A DNA stretch of 64,000 bases from Aphrocallistes beatrix. Lineage: Eukaryota; Porifera; Hexactinellida; Sceptrulophora; Aphrocallistidae. The translations under genes were made by a program, and so were the position numbers. Below, in pieces: positions 14,165-32,900 of the stretch. The notes under the pieces are model-generated. The model searched no databases. It saw nothing but the letters and a program-made list of their open reading frames with translations, and was not told the origin of the DNA. The stretch spans positions 868,001 to 932,000 of the forward strand of contig OY725498.1 of assembly GCA_963281255.1 (NCBI GenBank). Direction: 5' to 3'. Every line of letters begins with the position of its first letter. Position 1 is the first letter of the stretch.

Positions 14165-14292
14165 CAGTGGTTCCCAGAACGTATCAGGGGTCCACACGGT
14201 CTGAAATTTCGTATTAGTGTTAATGGGGGGAGTCCACAGTTGTAGAAAGATTGGTTTAGGGGTACACGGACAAAAAAGGTTGAAAACCGCTG
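14165..14292. mobile_element. Short MITE, CAGTGGTTCCC / AACCGCTG family
   Basis: The element begins CAGTGGTTCCCAGAACG and ends AAAAAGGTTGAAAACCGCTG. It has an internal GGGGTCCAC-type motif and belongs to the same family as 25206-25369. The CAGTGG terminus is typical of hAT-like elements. The flanks (aattagga and gaactagg) are at best a decayed 8-bp duplication, so this is an old copy. It has no coding capacity. Confidence 0.6.
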
Positions 14293-15602: not shown

Positions 15603-17146
15603 TCTTTCCAGTTATCTAGCTATTAGTAACTTTAATTGAATAGATCGTAATATACGTACGCAATTTGATCAACTTAAAATACAATGTATCCATGATTCAG
15701 AAATGAATTCACTTTATAAAGGTCTGGTAGTTCAATCAGGTGATTGAATGATATCGAGTTATGAGGACGATATATACCACGTGCATGCTATCGTCCTTCA
15801 TTTATGAATAGACAGATATTATACTTTGCTATTGTGTCCAGTCATATGAATGTCCAGCTAATTCTACGTTGCTAGCTATCATCAATAAATCTTTAGTCGA
15901 CATACCAAAAGTGAGTTAATTAAATTCGTTGTTTATAGATGTACACATTCCCCAAATCCATGTTGACATGTTCTCGGCGGGTTTACTTCTACATTTGCTC
16001 ACTCTCTCGTCTATAATTGCATGTACCATACATACTGATAAGACAGGTAGTGAGTTTTTGACGAGCTAAAATAAAATTTTTATAAAAGATGAAAAAATAT
16101 TATATATATACACATGTTCTGCTAATCCTACCTGGAGCAGCTCTAAGTAAGAATCCCTACTTGGCCAGCACTAAGTAGAAATATTCTTCGTTGACTCAGC
16201 GCCAAGTATTTGCGATTCTGCGGGAGTATCAGGGTTACATACTCATACATGCCAACCTGAGCCATGATAAAAGCGGGACGCAGCGTTGAATTTCGCGGGA
16301 CATGGCGGGACGCAATAGAAATGTATTATACATAGAGTCAAAAAAGCGGGATATTATGAAGAAATTTCATGTAAAAGCGGGACACTCGACAAAATTAGCT
16401 TAATAGAAGAGTGAAAAAAGCGGGACGTCCCGCTAAAAACTGAACAGTTGGCAAGTATGCATACTAATACGTGCGTATGCAAGTAATTCTAGTTAGATTC
16501 ATTTTCAATGATTATAATCATCAAGGTATTTGGTACATGGAAAGATGCAAACCATACAATACTTGCTAGAAACTATTCTTTTAAATAGACAAAAAATAAA
16601 CCCTCTTTGAGGGATTAATTAATCGAGGGAGAGGTGATATTGAGTATGGTAGATGTGTTGCCGGTAAACGCGTACACACTGAACGTTTTCACCGATGCAT
16701 TCGCGTATATTATTCCCTATTTCCATTTGTTCAATCACTCGCATGGTTATACTCATATTCATTGGGAAGTTTCTTATCTCTGAAATATTTTACTATCAGG
16801 TGGTAAATGGGCCTACAATTTAATATATTCGCCCCGGCTAAAATTCTAAGGATATACGGAATGCCACAAACATTAATTATAATCGATTCAAATCATCAAT
16901 GCCGTAGCCCATTTCTTGTAATAAATTAATAATTATATTTTACTTTACTCAAATAGTTCTGGAATCCACATTGTAACAAATAATAAATAATAAATGCAAT
17001 ATAAATATATCTGACATCGTATTGAAACATTCTAACTATTAATTAATAACTGCATTCAAAATTATGTAGCGGTGTATTATTGTACTTGAGTGGTAGCGTT
17101 ACAAAACAAAACAACTAAGTGAAGGGGAGATTAAGAGCATGTTTTA
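15603..17146. other. Intergenic region between PCYT2 and the Ig receptor cluster
   Basis: This region holds one MITE (16244-16459) and a possible isolated plus-strand signal-peptide exon (15968-16046, described under findings). Otherwise it is AT-rich with nothing recognisable. Confidence 0.5.
16244..16459. mobile_element. MITE with CATACWTGCCAAC ends and internal AAAGCGGGAC repeats
   Basis: The left end CATACATGCCAAC (16244-16256) and the right end GTTGGCAAGTATG (16447-16459) are inverted repeats matching at 12 of 13 positions. The internal text repeats AAAAGCGGGAC five or so times. The direct repeat catact flanks both sides (16238-16243 and 16460-16465) and may be all or part of the target-site duplication. 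The element is non-coding and about 216 bp long. Confidence 0.65.
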
Positions 17147-17935
17147 CTAGATCTGAGTTTCTTCATGCGGTCCACTTTCAGACACCTGTTGGGATTCTTC
17201 AAGTACAGTGGTCTGTTTAGAGTCTTTAGATGGTGCTGTATCTTGCATACTCGACTGGTCAACATGAAATACTAGTTTCCTCCTTTTCATCCATTTATTC
17301 AATTTCGCCCTTCTTTTATAAATAAACACGGTGAGACAAGGAATCTTACAAATGAAGAATATTACTAGCATAATGGCGATTGTACCAAGTATCTGCTTGT
17401 AAGCTAGTTGAATGTGTGTAGATTGCATAGTAGCATCACCTGTGTCTGTAGTAGACGGAGGAAGGTGTGTGGTCTCTGGGTTAATCGTTGATGTCAGTTC
17501 TGGAGTATTGGAAGATGTTGTAGTGTGAACAAAGGCTCCCAATGTTACTGTGATAGAAACATTTTCACCACTGTTAACCAGAGTTTGAAAGCAAGTAAAA
17601 CGTCGAGAGAGGTCGGATGCGTTGATAGCTTTGATTGAAATAATTCCTTCTAACTCTAAACTCTCAGTATCTGCAATCTCAAATCCATTATAGCGACTAT
17701 CAAATATGTGTTTTCGAATATCGCTGAAGGGAAATTGAGAGTTACTAACACCGTCAATGATCAGGTCAGGTGTTGTTCCATGGAATCTGTCTCCTATAGG
17801 AGCTTTCAGTTTACAAACTAGAAACACATCTTCTCCTAGCTTGGGGTTGGCGGGAAGAGCCTCGAAAGAAGCTTCAGAAGAGCAATAAGTGTGTGGGAGA
17901 AGGAGGAGAGAGAGAAATAGGACTTTGTCCAGCAT
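17147..17935 (-). CDS. Single-Ig-domain type I membrane protein, family member 1
   Basis: This is an intronless gene of 262 residues and the leftmost member of the tandem family. A signal peptide (MLDKVLFLSLLLLPHTYCSS) leads into one Ig-like domain. The B-strand Cys is at about 41 (GEDVFLVCKL) and the F-strand Cys at about 115 (NASDLSRRFTCFQ), 74 residues apart as in V-set domains. The ordinary core Trp after the first Cys is absent. A Ser/Thr/Pro-rich stalk (about 136-178), a membrane segment (about 182-206), a basic stop-transfer patch and a tail of about 50 residues follow. The tail ends EESQQVSESGPHEETQI; its last three residues, TQI, fit a class I PDZ ligand. The family is unknown to me, and a cell-surface recognition role is inferred from architecture only. 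Confidence 0.85.
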   Translation of the reverse strand: MLDKVLFLSLLLLPHTYCSSEASFEALPANPKLGEDVFLVCKLKAPIGDRFHGTTPDLIIDGVSNSQFPFSDIRKHIFDSRYNGFEIADTESLELEGIISIKAINASDLSRRFTCFQTLVNSGENVSITVTLGAFVHTTTSSNTPELTSTINPETTHLPPSTTDTGDATMQSTHIQLAYKQILGTIAIMLVIFFICKIPCLTVFIYKRRAKLNKWMKRRKLVFHVDQSSMQDTAPSKDSKQTTVLEESQQVSESGPHEETQI

Positions 17936-18026
17936 GTAGAAAGTGTACTCTATGATATTGGGATAATTATCTAGCTAGGTCATATTAGTATAGGTCATAG
18001 ATATGAGATATATACAAACAGAATGG

Positions 18027-18379
18027 CCAGTCAACTCGTACTGTATACCAACTCGTCCTAAATGTCAGCTCGCCGAGGTTAACTCGTCCTAAGTGAATTC
18101 GTGTCAGTTTTTAATTCCATTGATGGTTATAACAATCCACTTTTTACAACTGAAACCCCCAAAATAGGAACGAGTTAACCAAAAAAAGAGTGAGATGGGA
18201 ACCAGGCAACTCGTACCAACTACAAACTCGTCCAAAAGCACTAAGTCAACTCGTACCAACTACCAAAATGACCAAAATGATTTTCATAGCATTTTGGATG
18301 AGATATCTGTAAGAACACAGCGAAAAGCAGGATTTTCTGTTGACTTGGTACGAGTTGGTATGTGGTGCGAGTTGACTGG
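18027..18379. mobile_element. MITE with CCAGTCAACTCG ends
   Basis: The left end CCAGTCAACTCGTAC and the right end GTGCGAGTTGACTGG are inverted repeats. A second shared block, ATACCAACTCGT, lies just inside each end. The interior repeats ACTCGTNCCAACTA several times. No clear target-site duplication was seen. Short open frames inside are by-products of the repeats. Confidence 0.65.
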
Positions 18380-18636
18380 TCCCCAATAAGTACTGTGTAC
18401 TCAAAATATGGCAATAAAGAGATACAGCATACGGCAATGGTGATATTACGCATATAATAAGAGTTTGATCTCTATATCAGAAATGCGAGCCTAATCATTA
18501 TATGGCTTAATTAAGCATGGCATTCTAAGGACATTCAAGAAATGGTACACTCTACAATTTTGGACCATGGATGAAATAGTCTAGTTAGGGGATTTCACAG
18601 AAATTGAAACATAAATTGTTCCAAGACACAGACCTG

Positions 18637-18985
18637 TTGCGTGAAATTCTGAGACATCCGCTTAGAAATCTTAGCAAGCTCCGATCTAATATTATGCAAC
18701 TTGTAGTTCCTATTACAGAATGATATTTCACAAAACATGATGATTTTGTTCTATATTGTAGTTACAAGTTATAATGATTCTTGCTTACAGTGGTAATTAA
18801 CACTTTCGAAAACTCAATAATGGATACGGTGATCCTAGAAATAGAATAGGATTTGGTATCAAAATAGAACAAAATCATCATGTTTTGTGAAATATCATTC
18901 TGTAATAGGAACTACAAGTTGCATAATATTAAATCAGAGTTTGCTAAAGCTTGTGAGCGAATGTATCAGAATTTCACGCAAGTTG
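18637..18985. repeat. Long inverted repeat (arms about 120 bp, loop about 106 bp)
   Basis: The left arm, 18637-18755, and right arm, 18862-18985, are reverse complements. They are nearly perfect over the inner 65 bases (attctgtaataggaactaca in the right arm) and more diverged towards the outer ends (gcgtgaaattctga against tcagaatttcacgc). A fold-back transposon is likely. A transcript across it would form a long hairpin. Confidence 0.75.
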
Positions 18986-19322
18986 CACATCCATGGTTCC
19001 TTTTATATAAGTGCCGCCTCAGAGAATATCACGCAACAGACCTTAGAAAATATTACCAAAATTTTACCACCAAACGTATATAAACCACACATCAGGGTGG
19101 GTAATTGAATACGTTGTCAAAATCTGAACTAGTTATTTTTCAAAAGGTGGCTGTGCCCCCCCAGTAATTTTTCCTACGCCCCTGATTCCTAGTAGTATTG
19201 TAAAATTAAAAACTCTCCAAAATTCATCTAAATTTTACAAATAAATAAATCACATGAACATGCAATAGAAAAGTTAAGTGAACTTTTGCATTAAATTAAT
19301 ATGGATACTTTCTGGAATTATT

Positions 19323-20168
19323 TTACTTCTTTTCTGGCTGTGGGGTTTCCAAAACTGCATCTTCTTCCTTAGAAGGACTATTTGATAAAGGTGTCCGCAA
19401 ATCTATTTGGGGCTGAACTTGTTCTGTTTTTGCGATACTACATGGCCATAATATATCTCTAAACGTTTCAGAACAAAATAACATAGCTAGGATTAGAAGC
19501 AAAATACCAATTATAACAAATAGTACGAATATAAAAGCTCCCTCTACTGCCGCGATAACTATGCTAACAACACACGTAGAATCTGAATACTGCCGAGTGG
19601 AATTTGTTGGTTCGGATGTGGTAGGGGTATTGGGTGTAGAATCGATAGGTGATTGAGTATTACTCGGAGTTGCTTCTGGAATGTTTGTGGTAGTTTGATT
19701 TGTAGATGCACATGTAGGAGTAGGTATTGTGATGCTAACATGGTCATTCAATGTTATTGCTACGTTGACCTGTCCATTACTTCCAAATGTTTGAAAGCAA
19801 TAGAAATGACGAGAGAGATCTGAAACGTTGAGATCTTCGATTAAGACTATTCCTTTTAGTTTTAAGGCCGTACTATTTTCCTTTGCATATCCATCGTAGC
19901 GACTGTCAATTATATATTGTCGAATATCAGTGAAGCGAAATTGAAAGGAAACATCGTCAGTTCTTAGGTCGGGTGTTGTCCCATCAAAAATCTCCCCCAT
20001 AGGAGTTTCAAGCTCACAAACAAGGATCACGAGTTCTCCTAACCGAGGTTGTGAGGGTATTGGATAGAATCTGCTCTCACAGCATGTGGTAGGTAGGAAG
20101 AGGTAGAGCGCGAGATAGATCAGTAAGGATTTGTGCAACATCTGATGAGTTGAGTTATTTTTGAACAT
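19323..20168 (-). CDS. Single-Ig-domain type I membrane protein, family member 2
   Basis: This is an intronless gene of 281 residues from the first ATG. The second ATG at 20141 (MLHKSLLIYLALYLFLPTTC) gives a cleaner signal peptide and a 272-residue product, and is probably the true start. The Ig-like domain follows the family pattern: PRLGELVILVCEL, FDGTTPDL, then NVSDLSRHFYCFQ, with the two cysteines 73 residues apart. It is closest to member 1 (shared TTPDL and SDLSR). The stalk is long and Thr/Pro/Ser-rich with NQT and NST glycosylation sites. The membrane segment is unusually long and hydrophobic (VLFVIIGILLLILAMLF). The tail is about 50 residues and ends ETPQPEKK. It has none of the EES/SG tail motif seen in members 1, 3 and 6. 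Confidence 0.84.
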   Translation of the reverse strand: MFKNNSTHQMLHKSLLIYLALYLFLPTTCCESRFYPIPSQPRLGELVILVCELETPMGEIFDGTTPDLRTDDVSFQFRFTDIRQYIIDSRYDGYAKENSTALKLKGIVLIEDLNVSDLSRHFYCFQTFGSNGQVNVAITLNDHVSITIPTPTCASTNQTTTNIPEATPSNTQSPIDSTPNTPTTSEPTNSTRQYSDSTCVVSIVIAAVEGAFIFVLFVIIGILLLILAMLFCSETFRDILWPCSIAKTEQVQPQIDLRTPLSNSPSKEEDAVLETPQPEKK

Positions 20169-20289
20169 TGTAAAAACTACTAGAAGCTAAGTAAAGTGAC
20201 AATCGACATGTCGCGTTTACAAGATGTTGGGATTACGATATGTCGAAAATGCGACATAGTGTAGATTTCGAATAAATATGTTCAAATTT

Positions 20290-20574
20290 TTGTGATGATA
20301 TACATATATAAAGCAAAAAAATGCTAAAAATGAGCTAGAGAATTGCTTTCAATTGTTGACCTGGGTGTAGAATCCATATATCGTATATCGATCTAATGTT
20401 GATAATTTTTGTTTACAATACATTCATAAAGTAAATAAATTTGAAACGGATTAGTGAAAGTATCAATATTTTTAACCTCTAGGGGCTTCTGAATTTGTAT
20501 ACTTTACCAGGAGCCCGTAAGGCGATTCTGCGAACACAAAGTGTTCGCTAGCCGCGCTACGCAAGTGCGCTTGT
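20290..20574 (-). repeat. Diverged AT-rich repeat plus GC-rich module, reverse copy
   Basis: Positions 20320-20450 match, with many changes, the AT-rich repeat seen at 35400-36040 (gagctagagaattgctttca, ttgttgacctggg, ttttgtttacaata). The GC-rich module follows at 20513-20574 (gcgattctgcgaacacaaag ending gcgcttgt). The pairing and order are the same as at 36 kb and, inverted, at 60.5 kb, which supports a single mobile unit. Confidence 0.6.
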
Positions 20575-20710
20575 ACAACTGAATTTCTTGGCAATTGATT
20601 TAGCAATTGACTAGTCGCATATGTATAATAAAATAATTTTCTGACATTCTAAATCTAAACAAGTCTCAACAATAAGCGATATGAAAAGTGAGAGGAGAAG
20701 CATAAAATAT

Positions 20711-21670
20711 CTAAATAGTTTCTTCTGGACCACTCTTCTGAGTTTCTACAGAATTGTATCTTCTAACTGCGTGATGGGATTCCTCACTCGAAGGGTTAGC
20801 CTGTGTTGGAATGGATGAGAAAGATATGAATGATGGATCATCACAAGATTCGTAGCTAGTTGTAGAAACAGAACTTTTTGAACCTGAGGATGTATTCGAG
20901 ATAGGCTGTAGTTGCACAGGATTCTGTTCTGTTGCTATTTCCGAAGATTCACTCTTCTTCTTACAAAAGTAACAGATAAAATAACCAATACAAATACCTA
21001 TACCAAGGAGAAAAATATGACTAAGAAAAACGCTAGCACTAACACCACCCATAACTATCTCAAATTGCGGGATATAAAATCCGTGAACTTGCTTAGTTGT
21101 TGGAGTAGGATTAGCAAGCGTAGACGTAGTTTGTATGGGAGTATCAGAGATTCCAGGAGTAGCTGTAGCTTCAGGGGATTTCCCTACATCTTCACTGGAG
21201 GGATTCAGACTCGTTGTGGATGGCATGATGTGGGATGTCAGTGATTGAGTTGGGTTGATAGAGTTCTGTGGAGTATGAAAGTTATTCAGTATGAGAGAGG
21301 CTGAAATGGCTTTATCATTCTGAAACAGAGTTTGAAGACAAGTGAAGTTGATAGAGAGATCAGATTCGTTAAGAGAGGAAATAAAGATAAATCCTTGCAT
21401 TCGAATGCGATTCAAATCTGGTATTTCATATCCATAGAATAGATCTCCTAGTTCAGATGAGATAGCACTGAAGTGGAACTGATGAGTGCCCACAATGTCA
21501 ACTATAAGGTCAGGTACAATGCTGCTAAATTGAGACTCATCAATTTCCAATTCACAAAACAAGAAAACTTTTTCTCCTAGCCTAGGGCTGACAGGAATGG
21601 GGTAAAAGCTGCTTTTGGAAGCAGCAGAGAGTTGGAAAAAGAATAGCGAGAGTATGATTGAGTAATGCAT
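20711..21670 (-). CDS. Single-Ig-domain type I membrane protein, family member 3
   Basis: This is an intronless gene of 319 residues. The signal peptide is MHYSIILSLFFFQLSAASKS. The Ig-like domain has Cys at about 39 (GEKVFLFCEL) and 111 (NESDLSINFTCLQ), with the NES and NFT sequons shared by most members. The Thr/Ser/Pro stalk is long (about 132-200), followed by a membrane segment (about 210-238) that ends CYFCKKK. The tail, about 80 residues, is Ser-rich and closes with EESHHAVRRYNSVETQKSGPEETI in the last 24 positions, similar to the ends of members 1 and 6. At DNA level its 3' half resembles member 6 and its 5' half does not, which points to exchange between the genes. Confidence 0.85.
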   Translation of the reverse strand: MHYSIILSLFFFQLSAASKSSFYPIPVSPRLGEKVFLFCELEIDESQFSSIVPDLIVDIVGTHQFHFSAISSELGDLFYGYEIPDLNRIRMQGFIFISSLNESDLSINFTCLQTLFQNDKAISASLILNNFHTPQNSINPTQSLTSHIMPSTTSLNPSSEDVGKSPEATATPGISDTPIQTTSTLANPTPTTKQVHGFYIPQFEIVMGGVSASVFLSHIFLLGIGICIGYFICYFCKKKSESSEIATEQNPVQLQPISNTSSGSKSSVSTTSYESCDDPSFISFSSIPTQANPSSEESHHAVRRYNSVETQKSGPEETI

Positions 21671-22291
21671 AAAATCAAATTAACTTCAGAAGTGTAAATT
21701 TTATTCAACCAACAATCTAGTATAGTGAGGCAAAATGAAAATTATATCTTGATAAAATGAAGTAGCATCAAATAATTATAATCCCTCTAACGACAACCAA
21801 TATAAATGGTAAATGCATTCGTTCAGCCGTGAACTACCGCATAAGTAAGAGCTGGATAATGGATTATGGACTAAATAAGTATACGTAAATAAGGATGAAT
21901 AAATGAAAAACTTTGGTGTGTAAGCAATCTAGATATCAAAACATAAGTTTTATTTGTTCGAAATGCATTTAAGCCTAAAAATCTAATTTATTGCTAAACT
22001 ACTACTAACGCTCAATAATAAATGAGGTAAAAGGAACGGAAGTCACCATTTGTTTGAAATATTGCGCACCAATGCTTAAACATTACTTCTCTGCTAATAT
22101 ACTGGTATATATTCTACAAAATAAAAAAACTGATTTGAGATTATGAATTGCATCTGAAATTATAAAATTCATACAAATTCAGCGTACGTATATTTAAGTA
22201 AAAAATAACCTCCATAGTATTAAGAAAGTTCCAACTATAGTTAGAAGTGACGTAAATCATAACTTTTATGACAGGCGTTGATGTGACAGTC
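21671..22291. other. Intergenic spacer between family members 3 and 4
   Basis: AT-rich spacer. I saw no gene, repeat end or RNA feature. Confidence 0.5.
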
Positions 22292-23107
22292 TTATTGGTC
22301 ACTTTCTTGCAATGTCTCTGGAGATGTAGATCCCGAGGAATTGGGATCTATTTCAATAGAACTGTCTTGAGGTCTGTTAACTGATTTGGTTACGCTTTTA
22401 AGTCCAGTTGGTGGTTCAGATGATTTACAAGTAGATATATTCTTTCTAAGGGTCCGATATATCTTCAAAATATTTTTTTTAGTCCGAACTTTAAACAAGT
22501 TTTGACATATCAGCAGTGAAGCAATTGTAACAGAGATTATCAAGGTTGTTTTTTCCCAAATGGAACTCCCCGGACCACATACCGGACAACCAGTTGATGG
22601 TACTATTCCATTTGATTGAGTTGTTTCGGCTGTTTTGATGCTATCAGAGGTAGAATCAATTGAATCGGTAACCACTGCAGGAGGAGGAGTGAATGTGTTC
22701 TGAACGAAGTTAGCCAATATCAGAGAAGCAGAAATTTCTCGAACATTCTCAACATATTGAAAGCAAGTGAAGTTGATAGAGAGATCGGATTCCTGAAGAG
22801 AAGAGATGAAAATAAATCCCTGCAGGTAGGAGCTACTTGAATCACGGATAGTCCATCCATGGTAACGACTGTCTCCTAACTCAGATTGAATCTCATCAAA
22901 GTTAAACTGATGGTCAATATTGCTAGTAGTTAGATCTGGAACTGTACCAGAGAACTGGTATCCATCAGGAGCTGTTAGTGTACAAGCTAAGAGCACATCT
23001 TCTTCCAACTTAGGATGGATGGGTCTGGAAATAAAACTGCTCTCAGAAGAATAAGAAGTGTGAAAGAAGAGAGAAAGAAATATGACATTGAGGATTGAGA
23101 ATCGCAT
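22292..23107 (-). CDS. Single-Ig-domain type I membrane protein, family member 4
   Basis: This is an intronless gene. The open frame extends upstream to a TTG at 23176, but the first ATG that gives a normal signal peptide is at 23107 (MRFSILNVIFLSLFFHTSYS), for 271 residues. The Ig-like domain is nearly the same as in members 5 and 6: EEDVLLACTLTAPDGYQF, SGTVPDLTTSNIDHQF, RYHGW, and QESDLSINFTCFQ, with cysteines at about 42 and 115. The stalk is short and carries a membrane-proximal CPVC motif (STGCPVCGPG) also found, as CPPC, in member 5. The membrane segment is about ISVTIASLLICQNLF. The tail is basic at first and then Ser/Thr-rich, ending SPETLQESDQ. Confidence 0.84.
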   Translation of the reverse strand: MRFSILNVIFLSLFFHTSYSSESSFISRPIHPKLEEDVLLACTLTAPDGYQFSGTVPDLTTSNIDHQFNFDEIQSELGDSRYHGWTIRDSSSSYLQGFIFISSLQESDLSINFTCFQYVENVREISASLILANFVQNTFTPPPAVVTDSIDSTSDSIKTAETTQSNGIVPSTGCPVCGPGSSIWEKTTLIISVTIASLLICQNLFKVRTKKNILKIYRTLRKNISTCKSSEPPTGLKSVTKSVNRPQDSSIEIDPNSSGSTSPETLQESDQ

Positions 23108-23525
23108 TTGAATAGATAATATTATAATAGTAGTTAATGCCACTACAAAAATAATAATGGTAAGGCTATGAGGCAATAATTTAGAATTAAGTTAAAATTA
23201 AAATTAATCTCCGCTTAAGACTTAAGTATATAATTAATTCAAGTTCAGCGCATTTGAATTGACGAGAATATTAAATGTAAACAAGAAATTATAAATTGCT
23301 ATAAATTCAGTATACATCTAAGAATAAAATAATAAAAAAGTATTAATGACAAGGATTCGAATGTTGCTTTCTGAAGGAAGTCGTGTACTGAGGTCAGAGA
23401 GAACAGACACCAGTACCATCAAGATGGAATAAATTCAAAGCTCAAACTATGATTATAAGTGACGTGAATAAGTATAACTGTTATAGGGAACCTTTGGGGG
23501 ATCCCCTGAAACTGAGAGAATCTCA

Positions 23526-24287
23526 TCAATCGTATTGTCTAGAGTTGTAGCGACTGTAATGGCTGTATTGTCTGATGTGGGGTGTGGCAACGTCAGATAC
23601 GGTTGGTGATATATCTACTCTATATTCTTTTTCACAGCAAATTAATTGATACAACTTTGTCTTCGTAATCCAACCTTTGAAAAAGAAACATGCACAAAAA
23701 CATGGCACCGATAATAAAGCAGCTACAATAAAAATGCCTATGGTTGCTATCTCCCAAGTACAATCTATTGGACTACATGGCGGACACCCAGTTGTAGGTA
23801 CTGTGCTATCTGAATAATTTGTTGATGCGGTTTTGACGGAGGAATCAACGGAATCGGTAACCATTGCAGGAGGAGTGGATGTGTTCTGAACGAAGTCAGC
23901 CAATATCAGAGAAGCAGAAATTACTGTATCATTCTCAACATATTGAAAGCAAGTGAAGTTGATAGAGAGATCAGATTCGTTAAGAGAAAAGATGGAAATA
24001 AATCCCTGTAGGTAGGTGCTACTTGAATCACGGATACTCCATCCATGGTAACGATTGTCTCCAAACTTAGATTGAATCTCGTCAAAGTCAAACTGATGGT
24101 CAATATTGCTAGTAGTTAGATCTGGAACTGTACCAGAGAACTGGTATCCATCAGGAGCTGTTAGCTTACAAGCTAAGAGCACATCTTCTCCCAACTTAGG
24201 ATGGATGGGCAGGGACTTAGGAATAAAATTGCACTCAGAAAACCAAGGAGTGTAAAAAACGAGGAAGAAGATTGCTATGTATAGCAT
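23526..24287 (-). CDS. Single-Ig-domain type I membrane protein, family member 5
   Basis: This is an intronless gene of 253 residues. The signal peptide MLYIAIFFLVFYTPWFSEC is shared almost exactly with member 6 and the broken copy 8. The Ig-like domain has Cys at about 40 and 113. The short stalk ends in TTGCPPC next to the membrane segment (about EIATIGIFIVAALLSVPCF, followed by more Cys and Phe). The tail of about 50 residues is Tyr-rich near its end (QYSHYSRYNSRQYD), unlike any other member. None of these tyrosines fits a classical ITIM or ITAM. The ectodomain is near-identical to member 6 while the tail is unrelated. Confidence 0.85.
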   Translation of the reverse strand: MLYIAIFFLVFYTPWFSECNFIPKSLPIHPKLGEDVLLACKLTAPDGYQFSGTVPDLTTSNIDHQFDFDEIQSKFGDNRYHGWSIRDSSSTYLQGFISIFSLNESDLSINFTCFQYVENDTVISASLILADFVQNTSTPPAMVTDSVDSSVKTASTNYSDSTVPTTGCPPCSPIDCTWEIATIGIFIVAALLSVPCFCACFFFKGWITKTKLYQLICCEKEYRVDISPTVSDVATPHIRQYSHYSRYNSRQYD

Positions 24288-24344
24288 TAACTTTCAACTA
24301 TCTAATCTGTTACACTTAAATCAAAACTTGGCAGCAAGATATCA

Positions 24345-24810
24345 CAGAGTTGCACGCGGGCTGCGGGCCGACTTTTCTTATCGGCCCGCGGGCTGTGCGG
24401 AACGAATATAAGTATGCAGGCTCCGCGGGCCGGAAATCTTGGCAGGGCTCCCCGCGATGACAACCGAAACGATGTTTTTAACTGTCGATAGAAGTTGCAG
24501 AAACTATATTGCCGGCACTCGCCGGCAATATAGTTTCTGCTTCACTCGCCGGCAATATAGAGTGATGGCCTGGGACACTTCTGATACTTACGTAAATGGA
24601 ACTTTGTTAGTTTCCACTTATTTGTCTTTGCAGAAACTCACCCCATAAAAGGATTCCCTAAGTGTCTCTCAATAGTTAGTAACTCACAAAGTGGGCCAAA
24701 AATATTTATGCGGGCCGAATAATTTAGTTGCAGGCTTCTTGCGGGCCGCGGGCCGGGTTAACTTAAAATTGCGGGCCGCGGTTACAAATTTCGGCCCGCG
24801 TGCAACTCTG
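24345..24810. mobile_element. hAT-like MITE rich in CGGCCCGCGG motifs, with a near-perfect target-site duplication
   Basis: The ends CAGAGTTGCACGCGGG and CCCGCGTGCAACTCTG are perfect 16-bp inverted repeats. The flanks agatatca (24337-24344) and cgatatca (24811-24818) match at seven of eight positions, an 8-bp target-site duplication typical of hAT elements. The inside carries repeated CGGCCCGCGG motifs and a central fold-back around gccggcaatatagtttctgc (about 24495-24560). It is non-coding. It lies between members 5 and 6 of the Ig cluster. Confidence 0.85.
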
Positions 24811-25205
24811 CGATATCACTACTACCTAACTTGTATGTGTTGCTATGAGGTGTTTACATAGTAATCGCAACATGGCGATTATACAGCGTCGGTCAAATGA
24901 ATTGCTCAAATTATATTTCAATAAAATTTGAGTTCTTCAAGTGATGATTGCCATAATTTAACCAACTCCCTACCCTTGGCTTCCTCTGAACTATCCATGT
25001 GGAAATCTTTATTGAATAATCCGATAATATCTCAACTTTATAACAGTCTGAATCGGGGTTTTTAACAGACTACTAAGGAACTGCCTAAAATCCCGTTTGG
25101 GAGAACAGGGTTCCCTAGAGCCTAGGGGATATGTTCGGGGGTACAAGATTCACTATGACATCGGCACTATGTAATTCAGTCAATGTTATATGAAATGATT
25201 TAATC

Positions 25206-25369
25206 CAGTGGTTCCCAACCTGGGATCCATGGACCCCATAGTGGCCCACAGAAGATATCAGGGGGTCCACAGGATTCGAAATTTTGTATTATGGTTAATA
25301 GGAGGGGTCCACAGAATATAGGAAAATTGCTATAGGGGGTCCACAGTCAGAAAAGGTTGAAAACCGCTG
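25206..25369. mobile_element. hAT-like MITE with a perfect 8-bp target-site duplication
   Basis: The element begins CAGTGGTTCCCAACC and ends GGTTGAAAACCGCTG. Both flanks read atttaatc (25198-25205 and 25370-25377), a perfect 8-bp duplication. The interior repeats GGGGGTCCACAG. It belongs to the same family as 14165-14292 and is the younger copy. Confidence 0.88.
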
Positions 25370-25505
25370 ATTTAATCCATATATTGCATATTATAAACAA
25401 ACTTGAAAGTGATACTTTCTATTAGTATAAACACAACACGGACAAATTACACTGCACACTGATTATAATCAATATTCTAATTGGTTCACTTTAAAAGAGA
25501 AATAT

Positions 25506-26441
25506 TTATAGATTTTCTTCTGAACCACTTTCAGAATTGAGTATTTTCCTTGTGTGGTAGGATTCCTCAGTAGAGCAGTCATTCTGCAGCTTGGGACATT
25601 CTCTGTTGGAAAGTTGGCTCGTGCAGGATTTGAAGGAAGACGAACTAGTGGAACTTTCTGAACTGGGAGCATTATTGGAGAGATGAAGTGGCCGCATAGG
25701 ATCAGTATTAGTGGTCGTTGTTTGATTTGAACATCTATTTTTATCTTGTTTCTTCCAAAAGAAATAAATATATACCCATAAAGTAATACACTGAGTAAAA
25801 ACAAAGACACTACAAATACACAGAACAGCTGATAAGATCCCTATAATAGCTAATAGATAGGAACAGTCGCTAGATTCACTAACTTCCTTCGAAGTTGTCA
25901 CTGTAGGATGAATGGGTGTATTGTATATGCTGCCTGTAGTTCCAATGGATGGCGAATCAGTTATACTAGCATTGCCGTCATTTGTAGATGACACAGTGGT
26001 TGGTTTGGCATGAGTTTGCGTACTAGAAGTTGGCGTATTTTGAATAAAGTTATTCAATATGAGAGAGGCCGAAATGATTCTATCATTCTCAACATATTGA
26101 GAGCAAGTGAAGTTGATAAAGAAATCAGATTCGTTAAGAGAAAAGATGAAAATAAATCCCTGAAGGTAGGTGCTACTTGAATCACGGATACTCCATCCAT
26201 GGTAACGACTGTCTCCAAACTTAGATTGAATCTCATCAAAGTCAAACTGATGGTCAATATTGCTAGTAGTTAGGTCTGGAACTGTACCAGAGAACTGGTA
26301 TCCATCAGGAGCTGTTAGCTTACAAGCTAAGAGCACATCTTCTTCCAACTTAGGATGGATGGGCAGGGATTTAGGAATAAAACTGCACTCAGAAAACCAA
26401 GGAGTGTAAAAAACGAGGAAGAAGATTGCTATGTATAGCAT
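25506..26441 (-). CDS. Single-Ig-domain type I membrane protein, family member 6 (mosaic)
   Basis: This is an intronless gene of 311 residues. The signal peptide and Ig-like domain are almost those of member 5: MLYIAIFFLVFYTPWFSEC, SGTVPDLTTSNIDHQFDFDE, and Cys at about 40 and 113 (FINFTCSQ). From ASLILNNF onwards the sequence switches to resemble member 3, including the stalk start and the tail end EESYHTRKILNSESGSEENL. The stalk is long and Thr/Ser-rich. The membrane segment is about LLAIIGILSAVLCICSVFVF followed by a second hydrophobic stretch before FWKKQDKN. The tail is about 75 residues and has a poly-Ser patch. The gene is open throughout and looks functional. Confidence 0.85.
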   Translation of the reverse strand: MLYIAIFFLVFYTPWFSECSFIPKSLPIHPKLEEDVLLACKLTAPDGYQFSGTVPDLTTSNIDHQFDFDEIQSKFGDSRYHGWSIRDSSSTYLQGFIFIFSLNESDFFINFTCSQYVENDRIISASLILNNFIQNTPTSSTQTHAKPTTVSSTNDGNASITDSPSIGTTGSIYNTPIHPTVTTSKEVSESSDCSYLLAIIGILSAVLCICSVFVFTQCITLWVYIYFFWKKQDKNRCSNQTTTTNTDPMRPLHLSNNAPSSESSTSSSSFKSCTSQLSNRECPKLQNDCSTEESYHTRKILNSESGSEENL

Positions 26442-27425
26442 TCTTTTACAAAATAAAATAGTTGAGAAAATATCTATTCTGTTAAAACAAACACTTAATA
26501 TAAAATTAATTTACACTTGTATAACTAATTGTGGATGAAGCATTGGAGAGCTGAGGGAGTTGTATAGGATTGTATCTGAACCATGAACCAAGTTTCTAAG
26601 CAACACAGTCGACTTGATACTCACTCCAGATAAAGAGTAGTTGCGCAGGAGTTGTGGTGTGCTGGTTATAGTGGCAATGACCGCCACTAGTTATACAGTT
26701 AAGTGCATAAGCTTTTGATGATATTTCAGTTTTATTTGTATGTAAAATTTTTAGTACGTAACACCAAAAGTATTCAACCATTCTGAGATTTCATAGAAAT
26801 AGCATGAAATAGGTCTATTCTTCAAGGACTAGGCATACACTGTGTTTGATTTCAGATTCTTAATATAAACTTTCGAATTATCTATTCTTAAACTTTCAGC
26901 TCGATCATTGTATTCGTCCCGGTTAAAATTTTTCAACCTTTTTTCTCACATTATAATTATTATTTATTATCTATAATTGTGGTAACTCGTTTTTGTTCGC
27001 AAAAAAAAGTTGATGCAATAAACTCATAGTTGAACTCGTTTAAGAATTCATTTCAATTCATTCATTCAGTATTTGAATTTTCAATTCTTCATGACTATGC
27101 AAAATATTAGTACAGAATATTTATAATCGATAATTAAAAACGTACATTTTGATCTAAAATGAATTTCTAGACCAACTCAAAATGAATTTATGCAGTCCTG
27201 ATCACTTAAACAGCAGATTGGCAGGGTCCATATCGATCGCGGTGCATAAATAATAAGTTATGTGTCATACAGTTGTAATGCCAAATATATTATTAGAATA
27301 AACATGAAGTATATCAATCAATTCCGGATAAACAAGTAAATATCATCGATTTCAAATATACGTCTGAATTTCGTAAACAATTTGGATAGTATTTATAGTA
27401 TTTGTAGTGATTAGTATTTATTGAG

Positions 27426-28202
27426 ATGCAATTTTCAATTCTTCCATTTCTCTTTCTCTTCTTTCACACCTCATGGTCTGCTGAAAACAGTTTTATTATC
27501 AAGTCTACTCCCGTCTATCCTAAGTTGGGAGAAGATGTGCTCTTAGCTTGCAAACTAACAGCTCCTGATGGACATAAGTTTCATGGTAAGGTACCAGACC
27601 TAAACACTAGCAATATTGACCATCATTTTAACTTTGATGATATTCATTCCAAGTTCGGAGATCGTTACCATGGATGGACTAGCCGTGATTCAAGTAGCAC
27701 TTACCTACAGGGATTTATTTTCATTTCCTCTCTTCAGGAATCCGATCTCTCTGTCATCTTTAATTGCTTCCAACGTGTTCAGGTGACTGATGAAGAAAAA
27801 TTGTTTTCCCTGATATTGGGTGAGCTCGTCCAGACTACGGACTCTACTCCTGCAATGGTTGCTAACTCTATTGACCCTTCAAACCCTAGTTCTCTTCCTA
27901 CTAATCTGATTACATCAACTGATGACATAACATCCTCAAAAACTCCTGATCTACTTCCAACACCTTCTAATTCAATTAATATGAAAACACAGATAAGCAG
28001 AAACATTCCTCTTGTTCCATCTAGTACTCCCATTTTTTCTGGCACAAACGGCCAAAAATGGGACGATGTTTCGCTAGCTTGGTACCAAGTACCTTTGAAT
28101 TGGTTAATTTCCATTAACTTAGTAATATCAATATTAATATTAATATTGATAGTAATAATATTTATAATATATTTGAAAAAAAGAAGAGAAAAACAGGAAT
28201 GA
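27426..28202 (+). CDS. Single-Ig-domain type I membrane protein, family member 7, opposite strand, almost tailless
   Basis: This is an intronless gene of 258 residues and the only member of the cluster on the plus strand. The signal peptide is MQFSILPFLFLFFHTSWSAE. The Ig-like domain keeps the pattern (GEDVLLACKLTAPDG, FHGKVPDLNTSNIDHHF, RYHGW, QESDLSVIFNCFQ) with Cys at about 42 and 114. The common NFT sequon is replaced by IFNC. The stalk is long and Ser/Thr-rich. The membrane segment is very Ile-rich (LVISILILILIVIIFIIYL) and the protein ends with only about eight cytoplasmic residues, KKRREKQE. It therefore cannot signal through its own tail. A decoy, a ligand, or a partner-dependent receptor are possibilities. 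Confidence 0.84.
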   Translation: MQFSILPFLFLFFHTSWSAENSFIIKSTPVYPKLGEDVLLACKLTAPDGHKFHGKVPDLNTSNIDHHFNFDDIHSKFGDRYHGWTSRDSSSTYLQGFIFISSLQESDLSVIFNCFQRVQVTDEEKLFSLILGELVQTTDSTPAMVANSIDPSNPSSLPTNLITSTDDITSSKTPDLLPTPSNSINMKTQISRNIPLVPSSTPIFSGTNGQKWDDVSLAWYQVPLNWLISINLVISILILILIVIIFIIYLKKRREKQE

Positions 28203-28513
28203 CAAAGGATAAACCCAAGACGAGTTAGGAAGAAATATATACAACAACAAAGAATGCAAACTGAGTAATATTAATCTTCAAACAAATGTTCAAGGCCAAT
28301 TTTCCTAATAATAATGCTCATTGTAATATTTATAATAATTGAACACTAGGTGCATTAGACATTGTATGCTGTCTCTGCTTGTTGCTTATTATTGAGAAAT
28401 CTCAAAGATTCAGATAAATATTTGCTTCATAGAAATAGTAATTAACTTTTGCAATGTTAATTAACAATTAAATGTTTGCTCATTACTTATATGTTGAACA
28501 AATGGATAGTGCC

Positions 28514-28832
28514 TATGTCTAGATGATGGTAAGCTCACCGATTACAGATAGACATACAGATGTAATTAAACAGTGAAATCAGCGCAAAATCAATGGAATT
28601 CCAATGCAATATTTGATGATATTCTTGAAGTTCATGTCGTTGCAGAAATTATTTTTAGTCTGAAAAAAGGTACTTACTTACTGATAGCTTTGTCATCGCT
28701 CATGGCCATATCCTGTATCGATATCAAGAAGTGGAACACTCCCTCTTGCACCACTTCACACCCGAAACTGAGTCCAAGGATAGCCAGGGTCCTGTGAACT
28801 TCCGGGAGGACCAATCTCAGATTCTGAGTGGT
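28514..28832 (-). pseudogene. Duplicated fragment of the EFR3 gene (part of one exon and its intron)
   Basis: This stretch is nearly identical to 36972-37290, which covers the 3' part of EFR3 exon 5 and the adjoining intron. The exon part still reads like EFR3 (SFGCEVVQEGVFHFLISIQD with small changes), but no other EFR3 exon accompanies it. The similarity stops abruptly at about 28832, where Ig-family sequence begins. It is therefore a transposed or recombined fragment rather than a gene. Confidence 0.85.
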
Positions 28833-29066
28833 TCTCCAAACTCAGATTGGATCTCGTCAAAGTTAAACTGATGGTCAATACGTATTGCTAGTAGTTAGAT
28901 CTGGAACTGTACCAGAGAACTGGTATCCATCAGGAGCTGCCAGCTTACAAGCTAAGAGCACATCTTCTCCCAACTTAGGATGGATGGGCAGGGAGTTAGG
29001 AATAAAACTGCACTCAGAAAACCAAGTAGTGTAAAAAACGAGGAAGAAGGTTGCTATGTATAGCAT
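28833..29066 (-). pseudogene. Broken Ig-family copy (member 8), truncated and frameshifted
   Basis: The 5' part of a family member starts at 29066 with a signal peptide like that of members 5 and 6 (MLYIATFFLVFYTTWFSEC) and runs through LACKLAAPDGYQF and SGTVPDLTTSN. A 4-bp insertion near 28880 shifts the frame compared with the intact copies and leads to a stop at 28875. The remaining Ig text continues in another frame to about 28833 and is then replaced by the EFR3 fragment. The second cysteine, stalk, membrane segment and tail are missing. The copy cannot make a receptor. Confidence 0.85.
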
Positions 29067-29530
29067 TCTTTTACAAAATAAGATAGTTGAGAAAATATCT
29101 AATCTGTTAAAACAAAAAATTAATTAATTTGTATAACTAATCAAATAAAATAACCTTAATTTCACCATCATAAAGTACGACCTGATTTTATGTGCTAAGA
29201 TGCCACTAACGAACTAATATGATTATTTAAGTCAATAGTTTTATAAGAGATTTACGGGAGTGTAGAGTAGAAAAGAAACGATTCAATAATCATAATAATG
29301 CTGCATCTAAATTTAGATACGGGAAAGAGACTTGAACCAAGTTTCTAAGCAACAGTCGATACTCACTCTGGAGTCTAGATAAAGACTAATTGCTCAGGAG
29401 TTGTGGTGTGCTGGCTATAGCGACAAATACTGCCACACGAGTTATACAGTTAAGCGCATAGCCATTTGAAGATATATCAACTTTATTTGTAAATTTGTAG
29501 TAGCACCAAAAGTATTCAACCACTAAGAAA
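29067..29530. repeat. Segmental duplicate of the region upstream of family member 6
   Basis: Text such as caagtttctaagcaacacag, ggagttgtggtgtgctggyt and agtattcaaccaytmwgaga recurs in the same order at 26442-26790, upstream of member 6. The duplication that produced the broken copy therefore carried its upstream flank with it. Confidence 0.75.
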
Positions 29531-29544
29531 TCTTTTCATATCGT

Positions 29545-29959
29545 ATCAATCAGAAAATATAATATCCGAATTCTACACCCATAAAAAGCATATGTTAACA
29601 GTTGGAAGCTAATCTCTAGCATATTTGTGTTATTTGTTTACTTTATGTACCCATTGTAAACAAAAGTAAACAAAAGATTTATCATATAGAACTGAAAATA
29701 TGATATTCGAAATCTACACCCCTGAAAACAGAATGTCAACCGCTGAAAGCAAGTTTCTAGCATATTTGTGTAATTTGTTTACTTTATGTACCCATTGTAA
29801 ACAAAAGATTTATCATATAGAACTGAAAATATGATATTCGAAATCTCACCCCTGAAAACCCCAGGTCAATCGTTTAAAGCAAGTTTCTAGCATATGTTTG
29901 AGATTTGTTTACTTTATGTACCTATTGTAAACAAAAGTAAACAAACAATTTTGATTTTG
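29545..29959 (+). repeat. AT-rich dispersed repeat, three tandem copies, forward
   Basis: Three copies of a unit of about 125-150 bp start near 29570, 29708 and 29838. Each includes gaaagcaagtttctagcata and gtttactttatgtacc, followed by ttgtaaacaaaagtaaac. The same unit lies in the reverse direction on the other side of the satellite (35400-36040), and elsewhere at 37620-37880 and 60650-60895. Confidence 0.8.
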
Positions 29960-32900
29960 CAGCATGCTGCGATTTAATTCTCAGCATGCTGGGATTTAAT
30001 TCTCAGCATGCTGCGATTTAATTCTCAGCATGCTGAGATTTAATTCTCAGCATGCTGAGATTTAATTCTCAGCATGCTGGGATTTAATTCTCAGCATGCT
30101 GGGATTTAATTCTCAGCATGCTACGATTTAATTCTCAGCATGCTGCGACTTAATTCTCAGCATGCTGGGATTTAATTCTCAGCATGCTGCGATTTAATTC
30201 TCAGCATGCTGGGATTTAATTCTCAGGATGCTGCGATTTAATTCTCAGCATGCTGGGATTTAATTCTCAGCATGCTGCGATTTAATTCTCAGCATGCTGA
30301 GATTTAATTCTCAGCATGCTGGGATTTAATTCTCAGCATGCTGCGATTTAATTCTCAGCATGCTGCGATTTAATTCTCAGCATGCTGAGATTTAATTCTC
30401 AGCATGCTGCGATTTAATTCTCAGCATGCTGAGATTTAATTCTCAGCATGCTGGGATTTAATTCTCAGCATGCTGCGATTTAATTCTCAGCATGCTGGGA
30501 TTTAATTCTCAGCATGCTGCGATTTAATTCTCAGCATGCTGGGATTTAATTCTCAGCATGCTGCGATTTAATTCTCAGCATGCTGAGATTTAATTCTCAG
30601 CATGCTGGGATTTAATTCTCAGCATGCTGGGATTTAATTCTCAGCATGCTGCGATTTAATTCTCAGCATGCTGGGATTTAATTCTCAGCATGCTGAGAAT
30701 TAAATCCCAGCATGCTGGGATTTAATTCTCAGCATGCTGGGATTTAATTCTCAGCATGCTGAGATTTAATTCTCAGCATGCTGGGATTTAATTCTCAGCA
30801 TGCTGAGATTTAATTCTCAGCATGCTGCGATTTAATTCTCAGCATGCTGGGATTTAATTCTCAGCATGCTGAGATTTAATTCTCAGCATGCTGCGATTTA
30901 ATTCTCAGCATGCTGGGAGATTTAATTCTCAGCATGCTGAGATTTAATTCTCAGCATGCTGAGATTTAATTCTCAGCATGCTGCGATTTAATTCTCAGCA
31001 TGCTGGGAGATTTAATTCTCAGCATGCTGAGATTTAATTCTCAGCATGCTGGGATTTAATTCTCAGCATGCTGAGATTTAATTCTCAGCATGCTGCGATT
31101 TAATTCTCAGCATGCTGAGATTTAATTCTCAGCATGCTGGGATTTAATTCTCAGCATGCTGGGATTTAATTCTCAGCATGCTGAGATTTAATTCTCAGCA
31201 TGCTGAGATTTAATTCTCAGCATGCTGGGATTTAATTCTCAGCATGCTGGGATTTAATTCTCAGCATGCTGAGATTTAATTCTCAGCATGCTGCGATTTA
31301 ATTCTCAGCATACTGAGATTTAATTCTCAGCATGCTGGGATTTAATTCTCAGCATGCTGCGATTTAATTCTCAGCATGCTGCGATTTAATTCTCAGCATG
31401 CTGAGATTTAATTCTCAGCATGCTGCGATTTAATTCTCAGCATGCTGAGATTTAATTCTCAGCATGCTGGGATTTAATTCTCAGCATGCTGCGATTTAAT
31501 TCTCAGCATGCTGGGATTTAATTCTCAGCATGCTGCGATTTAATTCTCAGCATGCTGGGATTTAATTCTCAGCATGCTGCGATTTAATTCTCAGCATGCT
31601 GAGATTTAATTCTCAGCATGCTGGGATTTAATTCTCAGCATGCTGGGATTTAATTCTCAGCATGCTGCGATTTAATTCTCAGCATGCTGGGATTTAATTC
31701 TCAGCATGCTGAGATTTAATTCTCAGCATGCTGCGATTTAATTCTCAGCATGCTGGGATATAATTCTCAGCATGCTGCGATTTAATTCTTAGCATGCTGC
31801 GATTTAATTCTCAGCATGCTGGGATTTAATTCTCAGCATGCTGCGATTTAATTCTCAGCATGCTGGGATTTAATTCTCAGCATGCTGCGATTTAATTCTC
31901 AGCATGCTGAGATTTAATTCTCAGCATGCTGGGATTTAATTCTCAGCATGCTGGGATTTAATTCTCAGCATGCTGCGATTTAATTCTCAGCATGCTGGGA
32001 TTTAATTCTCAGCATGCTGAGAATTAAATCCCAGCATGCTGGGATTTAATTCTCAGCATGCTGGGATTTAATTCTCAGCATGCTGAGATTTAATTCTCAG
32101 CATGCTGGGATTTAATTCTCAGCATGCTGAGATTTAATTCTCAGCATGCTGCGATTTAATTCTCAGCATGCTGGGATTTAATTCTCAGCATGCTGAGATT
32201 TAATTCTCAGCATGCTGCGATTTAATTCTCAGCATGCTGGGAGATTTAATTCTCAGCATGCTGAGATTTAATTCTCAGCATGCTGAGATTTAATTCTCAG
32301 CATGCTGCGATTTAATTCTCAGCATGCTGGGAGATTTAATTCTCAGCATGCTGAGATTTAATTCTCAGCATGCTGGGATTTAATTCTCAGCATGCTGAGA
32401 TTTAATTCTCAGCATGCTGCGATTTAATTCTCAGCATGCTGAGATTTAATTCTCAGCATGCTGGGATTTAATTCTCAGCATGCTGGGATTTAATTCTCAG
32501 CATGCTGAGATTTAATTCTCAGCATGCTGAGATTTAATTCTCAGCATGCTGGGATTTAATTCTCAGCATGCTGGGATTTAATTCTCAGCATGCTGAGATT
32601 TAATTCTCAGCATGCTGCGATTTAATTCTCAGCATACTGAGATTTAATTCTCAGCATGCTGGGATTTAATTCTCAGCATGCTGCGATTTAATTCTCAGCA
32701 TGCTGGGAGATTTAATTCTCAGCATGCTGAGATTTAATTCTCAGCATGCTGAGATTTAATTCTCAGCATGCTGGGATTTAATTCTCAGCATGCTGGGATT
32801 TAATTCTCAGCATGCTGAGATTTAATTCTCAGCATGCTGGGATTTAATTCTCAGCATGCTGAGATTTAATTCTCAGCATGCTGCGATTTAATTCTCAGCA

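Follow-up and report, generated by a model that had tools for sequence, protein, structure and literature searches.

Clustered receptors with immunoglobulin (Ig) domains are known as a kind, and several described systems can be set beside the one treated here, a tandem family of predicted single-Ig surface proteins in a 64,000-nucleotide stretch of contig OY725498.1 of the glass sponge Aphrocallistes beatrix (positions 868,001 to 932,000; hereafter the window). The Alr family of Hydractinia comprises clustered, single-pass Ig-superfamily membrane proteins of low overall identity (PMC11067881, PMC11876637), with 40 Alr and Alr-like genes, some of them perhaps pseudogenes, across chromosome 3 (PMC11876637). 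Vertebrate paired receptors such as Siglec-11/-16, CD300A/C and CEACAM1/3 join near-alike ectodomains to unlike tails (PMC5701461, PMC12447643, PMC5112662), and in SIGLEC11/SIGLEC16 gene conversion has been documented in the ligand-binding exon (PMC5701461). Sponge cell-surface Ig proteins are also in print, namely the Geodia receptor tyrosine kinase and the Ig-TIR receptors (PMC12018476, PMC8242945); these carry kinase or TIR domains, neither of which was listed by Pfam in the window proteins.

Judged from its sequence, the window family is a tandem set of single-pass cell-surface proteins in which a stalk rich in Ser/Thr/Pro carries a single, divergent Ig domain; the genome contains a much larger superfamily, of which this family is one branch. 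We propose, with a probability of roughly 0.45, that its members function in the style of paired receptors, with shared-ligand Ig domains homogenised by gene conversion and attached to unlike tails.

Architecture and predicted fold of the window proteins

The first-pass annotation of this DNA had described seven intact genes and one broken copy at 17147-29066, and both the open reading frames (ORFs) and DNA comparison bear this out. Seven ATG-to-stop ORFs of 253-319 aa occupy 17147-28202 (position 1 being the first letter of the stretch, and gene names following the start coordinates). On the minus strand lie g17 (17147..17935, 262 aa), g19 (19323..20168, 281 aa), g20 (20711..21670, 319 aa), g22 (22292..23107, 271 aa), g23 (23526..24287, 253 aa) and g25 (25506..26441, 311 aa), and g27 (27426..28202, 258 aa) is the sole plus-strand copy. 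Chance ORFs are ruled out: in 200 dinucleotide shuffles of 16000-30000 the longest ORF was 175 aa and none reached 250 aa, against seven in the real sequence. The truncated copy (28833..29066, minus strand) keeps the leader and the start of the Ig domain. It matches g25 at 93.5% over 292 bases, 57 of which lie upstream of the ATG. It is broken at 28832/28833, exactly where a 95.9% identical copy (28516..28832) of the neighbouring gene region 36973-37290 starts.

All seven proteins share one layout, as the annotation had it: behind a hydrophobic leader comes a single Ig domain with a Cys spacing of 72-74 (74, 73, 72, 73, 73, 73 and 72), then a Ser/Thr/Pro stalk, a single membrane span and a tail that varies from gene to gene. 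The Ig domain runs straight into the stalk, whose Ser/Thr/Pro content is 40-52%, and the proteins are probably glycoproteins. Tails, taken to start where the best-scoring 19-residue hydropathy window ends, measure 8-97 aa, the shortest being that of g27. Two overlapping hydropathy windows over the threshold in g22 and g23 were counted as one span, and the leaders were called by eye, the 19-residue window having flagged none of the seven. The description of each gene as a single exon stands for the coding region, which is one uninterrupted ORF in every case, and extends to the coding part only. An intronless state is ordinary for glass sponges, since the listing for Aphrocallistes vastus gives 19,578 genes and, alongside them, 12,409 transcripts with a single exon (PMC10282587).

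AlphaFold models of the ectodomains of g22 and g17 (predicted local distance difference test, pLDDT, 92.8 and 93.9) both display a two-sheet Ig beta-sandwich, the conserved Cys pair sits in predicted strands B and F, and the structural matches of the two models, among those listed, are Ig-type chains as judged from their titles. Both models are thus confident predictions of an Ig fold. The more specific label "V-like" fares less evenly. The canonical V-set is defined by a Trp in strand C and by strands C' and C''. The fold and the B/F Cys pair agree with the label; however, both models place a helix where strands C' and C'' are expected, and in all seven proteins the Leu of a conserved PDL motif occupies the position equated with the strand C core Trp. 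In sequence searches the family matched nothing with a name, as had been claimed: none of the seven proteins has a Pfam match over the cut-off, no Ig family (including V-set, PF07686) is listed for them up to E 5, and the PDB sequences yielded no match up to E 10. Sub-threshold Pfam hits (IIGP, EVI2A, Tf2-1_C, FAM163, Comm, TMEM154 and others) and an NCBIfam match at E 0.0034 in one of the seven proteins look like matches of composition or of the membrane span.

The top structural match in the PDB is poxvirus IL-18-binding protein (IL-18BP); for g17, the human IL-18BP ranks just below it. A library of viral structures gave 842 matches up to E 10, of which three reach E <= 1e-3, namely a poxvirus IL-1-beta inhibitor, an unnamed protein and an uncharacterised swinepox protein. 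The likeness to IL-18BP would suit innate receptors that bind soluble ligands or microbes, perhaps cytokine receptors or decoys; however, antibody, NCAM and nectin-type domains rank only about 1 to 2 Z units lower, which leaves the ranking little functional weight, and we regard this reading as very unlikely. A viral origin of the intronless Ig cluster is likewise not favoured, because host-like genes surround the cluster and relatives of its members occur on several contigs of the host.

Kinship with a large Ig-FN3 superfamily

The genome searched comprises 28 contigs totalling 100.5 Mb, and the cluster lies on contig C12. Queries with g22 and g17 found the close family, counted as a lower bound, only in the window, with at least the seven genes and the truncated copy. 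The same queries gave weaker matches (E 0.007 to 0.42) on C3, on C20 and, 88 kb from the cluster, on C12. A DNA pattern for the RYHGW motif has three further hits, two on C1 and one in another part of C12; as none of these sites surfaced in the protein searches, they were treated as chance.

An Ig exon from C3 used as query returned 106 matches up to E 1 and 92 at E <= 1e-3, counts that exceed the number of exons given that some exons are split into two rows. Of the 92, 82 are on C3 within 518308-1833854 (~1.3 Mb; loci among L017-L067), and the same query also reaches two window genes at E 0.037 and 0.19. A profile derived from the C3 exons detects all seven window proteins with filters off (E 2.6e-7 to 0.0058, g19 and g20 being weak) and four of the seven with default filters, reversed-protein controls scoring E 5.4 or worse. 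Alignment of 21 C3-type exons with the seven window genes by hhalign gives E 4.9e-7 and a probability of 92.5. Furthermore, all seven window genes have an Asp seven residues before the F-strand Cys, as do 21 of the 25 relatives chosen; of the other four, one has it at six residues and for three the script took another Cys.

In a tree of the seven window genes and these 25 relatives, the window genes form one group (ultrafast bootstrap, UFBoot, 99), joined next by C12_797 (94) and then by C8_3141 (91); within the group g19 pairs with g17 at UFBoot 64 only, and branches are long throughout. The nearest relative is a multi-exon gene about 88 kb to the left on C12 (L068 4095-7672), at a UFBoot of 94, just below the usual threshold of 95. 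By reading, this gene consists of an Ig exon, an FN3-like exon (fn3 being unlisted there by Pfam) and an exon for stalk, span and tail. In one C3 gene that was read through, the Ig exon is followed by FN3-like exons, then by a stalk exon and by an exon encoding the span and a tail with YEYIDI, DYVPM and YANL. In proteins from C11 and C8, fn3 is a Pfam match below the cut-off only. An intron-free coding region also occurs outside the window: the two C11 relatives each encode, in a single ORF, a leader, an Ig domain, an FN3-like part, a stalk, a span and a tail. The related C8 gene scores E 0.0038 against the Pfam V-set (17.8 bits, cut-off 26). A PDB search with the C3 profile listed 53 sequences, mostly antibody and T-cell-receptor V domains, with a best E of 0.04, a result that is suggestive only.

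The Ig domain of the window family, then, is homologous to exons of this Ig-FN3 superfamily on the evidence of hhalign, profile scores and tree, and the idea of a family standing alone is not upheld. The two sides have in common the Ig domain and its Asp seven residues before the F-strand Cys. They differ in that the C3 gene is multi-exon with FN3-like exons and a Tyr-motif tail, whereas the window genes are single ORFs without these: fn3 was unlisted by Pfam in all seven proteins up to E 5, YEYI, DYVPM and YANL are absent from all seven tails, and of 30 tail-like exons detected at E <= 0.01, 28 are on C3 and none in the window. By these comparisons the window family is a divergent branch, with single ORFs and no FN3, of this genome's large superfamily of Ig-FN3 receptors.

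This distribution of tail motifs bears on a different reading, in which the window proteins would be adhesion molecules or ligands without signalling of their own, each presenting an Ig domain on a mucin-like stalk to be read by the C3 receptors. Many Ig-superfamily receptor/ligand pairs have homologous Ig domains, as the window and C3 proteins do, and the window tails are without clear signalling motifs, of the kind carried by those C3 tails that were read. Tails of up to 97 aa and a C-terminal stretch that is alike in g17 (ending in ETQI), g20 and g25 nevertheless suggest some intracellular role, and we consider the ligand reading unlikely.

The C3 array with its Tyr-motif tails is possibly more important than the window cluster. 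Near its Ig exons, three stretches of 2.9-3.4 kb are 99.86-100% identical between C3 and C4, in inverted order (C3:1686732-1695306, C4:2024449-2033023; L060/L061, L048/L049, L057/L058), and represent either a segmental duplication of very recent date or a piece duplicated in the assembly.

Shared ectodomains and unlike tails

The comparison of the copies with one another supplies the grounds for the paired-receptor reading. Ectodomain identity among g22, g23 and g25 is 85-90% (100/118, 101/118 and 108/120 residues), and the three are also alike at silent sites in the ectodomain, while stalk and tail differ. At the DNA level g23 and g25 are 94.1% identical from the ATG to nt 407, with no further gene-to-gene blastn match; in the 600 flanking bases of these two genes nothing else matches, except for one match to the next gene. 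The similarity of g22 to g25 ends near nt 410, and that of g22 to g23 (85.6%) runs from nt 37 to nt 536, reaching into the stalk. The edge of homology among these three genes thus falls near the Ig/stalk border. The remaining minus-strand genes g17, g19 and g20 differ in the Ig domain too, with only 57/118 residues identical between g17 and g19, and g20 has a short tract near Ig strands E-F in common with g23.

The Ig domain looks to be under constraint, with dN/dS values of 0.12-0.68 in 20 of the 21 pairs. A contrast at fourfold sites is significant in four of seven pairs (p 4e-5, 1e-4, 0.009 and 0.013; the pairs were chosen by us and the p values are uncorrected). A run-length permutation over the whole alignment was matched in 0/2000 trials for g22/g23, g23/g25 and g20/g23, and when it was confined to the Ig domain g20/g22 (0.0065) and g20/g23 (0/2000) passed 0.01. 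Together these observations suggest that an ectodomain block has been moved or homogenised between genes with unlike tails.

In light of this, we propose that the ligands of g22, g23 and g25, and in part those of g27 and g20, would be identical or overlapping and be found on microbes or adjacent cells, that gene conversion could hold the Ig domain that binds them alike, and that the unlike tails (8 to 97 aa) may give one kind of contact different effects inside the cell, in the manner of paired receptors. The diverged Ig domains of g17 and g19 would probably have another binding partner.

Several results weigh against this proposal. In the remaining pair, g22/g23, where changes are few, the Ig dN/dS reaches 1.02, and many pairs have a dS above 1. 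The fourfold contrast is not significant in the other three pairs (g22/g27, p 0.11; g20/g25, 0.17; g17/g19, 0.27), and in the permutation within the Ig domain g22/g23 (0.061) and g23/g25 (0.14) both miss 0.01. A slowly evolving Ig domain beside fast tails would mimic the permutation result for the whole alignment, and the tails align poorly, so that counts in them are noisy. Unequal exchange that fuses one ectodomain to several tails leaves the same picture as conversion. As regards signalling, none of the seven tails, by reading, has an immunoreceptor tyrosine-based inhibitory motif (ITIM) or an immunoreceptor tyrosine-based activation motif (ITAM). An ITIM has a defined residue at -2 to the Tyr, and the Tyr motifs present, YRTL in g22, YQLI and others in g23 and YNSV in g20, are without it; a basic residue well inside the span is found in g17 only (a Lys). 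The window proteins thereby differ from the vertebrate paired receptors, to which their relation is at the level of the fold, and any functional pairing among them is putative.

The first-pass annotation had likened the cluster to self/non-self recognition loci such as Alr. On that account these would be allorecognition receptors, binding homophilically between touching tissues, discriminating self from non-self and diverse between individuals, like Hydractinia Alr1/Alr2. The architecture fits, with clustered single-pass Ig proteins that have an unusual Ig domain, a stalk and a tail; a truncated copy and blocks common to different genes are present, and the related C3 array has the scale of a recognition complex. 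The ectodomain, however, is precisely the common part in the trio g22/g23/g25, in which the BC loop is identical, FG varies at 2/4 positions and EF at 4/10, sites that are few and outline no clear binding face. When g27 is included, differences on the predicted strands and loops (FG 4/4, G 4/7, F 4/8, BC 4/12) are spread, at sites too few for a test, and a variable binding face was rejected as a description. The ectodomains of Alr1 and Alr2 are reported as polymorphic, whereas the glass-sponge cluster is known from one assembly and is likened to them by description only; that families such as Alr do not appear in the structural listings carries no weight. Allorecognition is hence possible on architectural grounds but doubtful, the close trio pointing away from a variable ectodomain; a shared Ig domain with diverged tails in g22/g23/g25 fits paired receptors with a common ligand better than Alr-like variable ectodomains.

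Surroundings, source and significance

Between g23 and g25, the segment 24290-25500 carries 'cggcccgc'-type repeats and, at 24497-24540, an imperfect palindrome of 44 bases; 25240-25369 (130 bases) is 78% identical to 14166-14292. Beside the cluster, a satellite array of ~20-base units based on CAGCATGCTG and ATTTAATTCT runs from 29950 to beyond 31500, its far end being suggested by AT skew at about 36000.

The mitochondrial contig (C28, 17,996 bases) speaks for the source of the DNA. In COX1 compared with the mammalian chain, TGA falls on Trp at 12/14 positions, AGA (n=16) on Ser 6, Ala 4, Gly 3, Asn 2, Lys 1 and Arg 0 times, and ATA (n=42) on Ile 18 times and Met twice. AGR is reported to stand for Ser in glass sponges and in some bilaterians but in neither demosponges nor other lower animals, and for Ile glass sponges prefer ATA (PMC2267718); this codon reading points to Hexactinellida. 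A putative cox3 lies in two overlapping frames (L034 8806-9590), like the reported Aphrocallistes cox3 (PMC2267718), mitochondrial gene names other than COX1 having been assigned by reading.

Relative to clustered Ig receptors as a known kind, what appears new in our literature search is the family, its glass-sponge setting and its link to the 1.3-Mb Ig-FN3 array; this novelty is judged from the literature alone, without a eukaryotic protein database, and orthologues in other sponges may exist. The search found no self/non-self molecules for glass sponges, a word search of the genome paper of Oopsacas minuta gave neither "immune" nor "allorecognition", and one of that of Aphrocallistes vastus (PMC10282587) gave no "immunoglobulin".

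The molecules for self/non-self discrimination in sponges are poorly known, and the cluster is a candidate recognition system in an early-branching animal. Its seven single-ORF genes, with a well-predicted ectodomain of ~120 residues, should be easy to express and assay, and the 1.3-Mb Ig-FN3 array is a larger target. A more speculative extension, which we hold to be improbable as a whole, would make the C12 cluster and the C3 array together a glass-sponge recognition complex, with Tyr-motif receptors on C3 and gene-converted single-Ig partners on C12. If true, paired-receptor evolution, with one conversion-homogenised ectodomain and many tails, would have occurred in a sponge whose largely syncytial tissue must control fusion. 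More generally, ectodomain-limited gene conversion in a sponge, if true, would suggest that the evolution of paired receptors is not confined to vertebrates.

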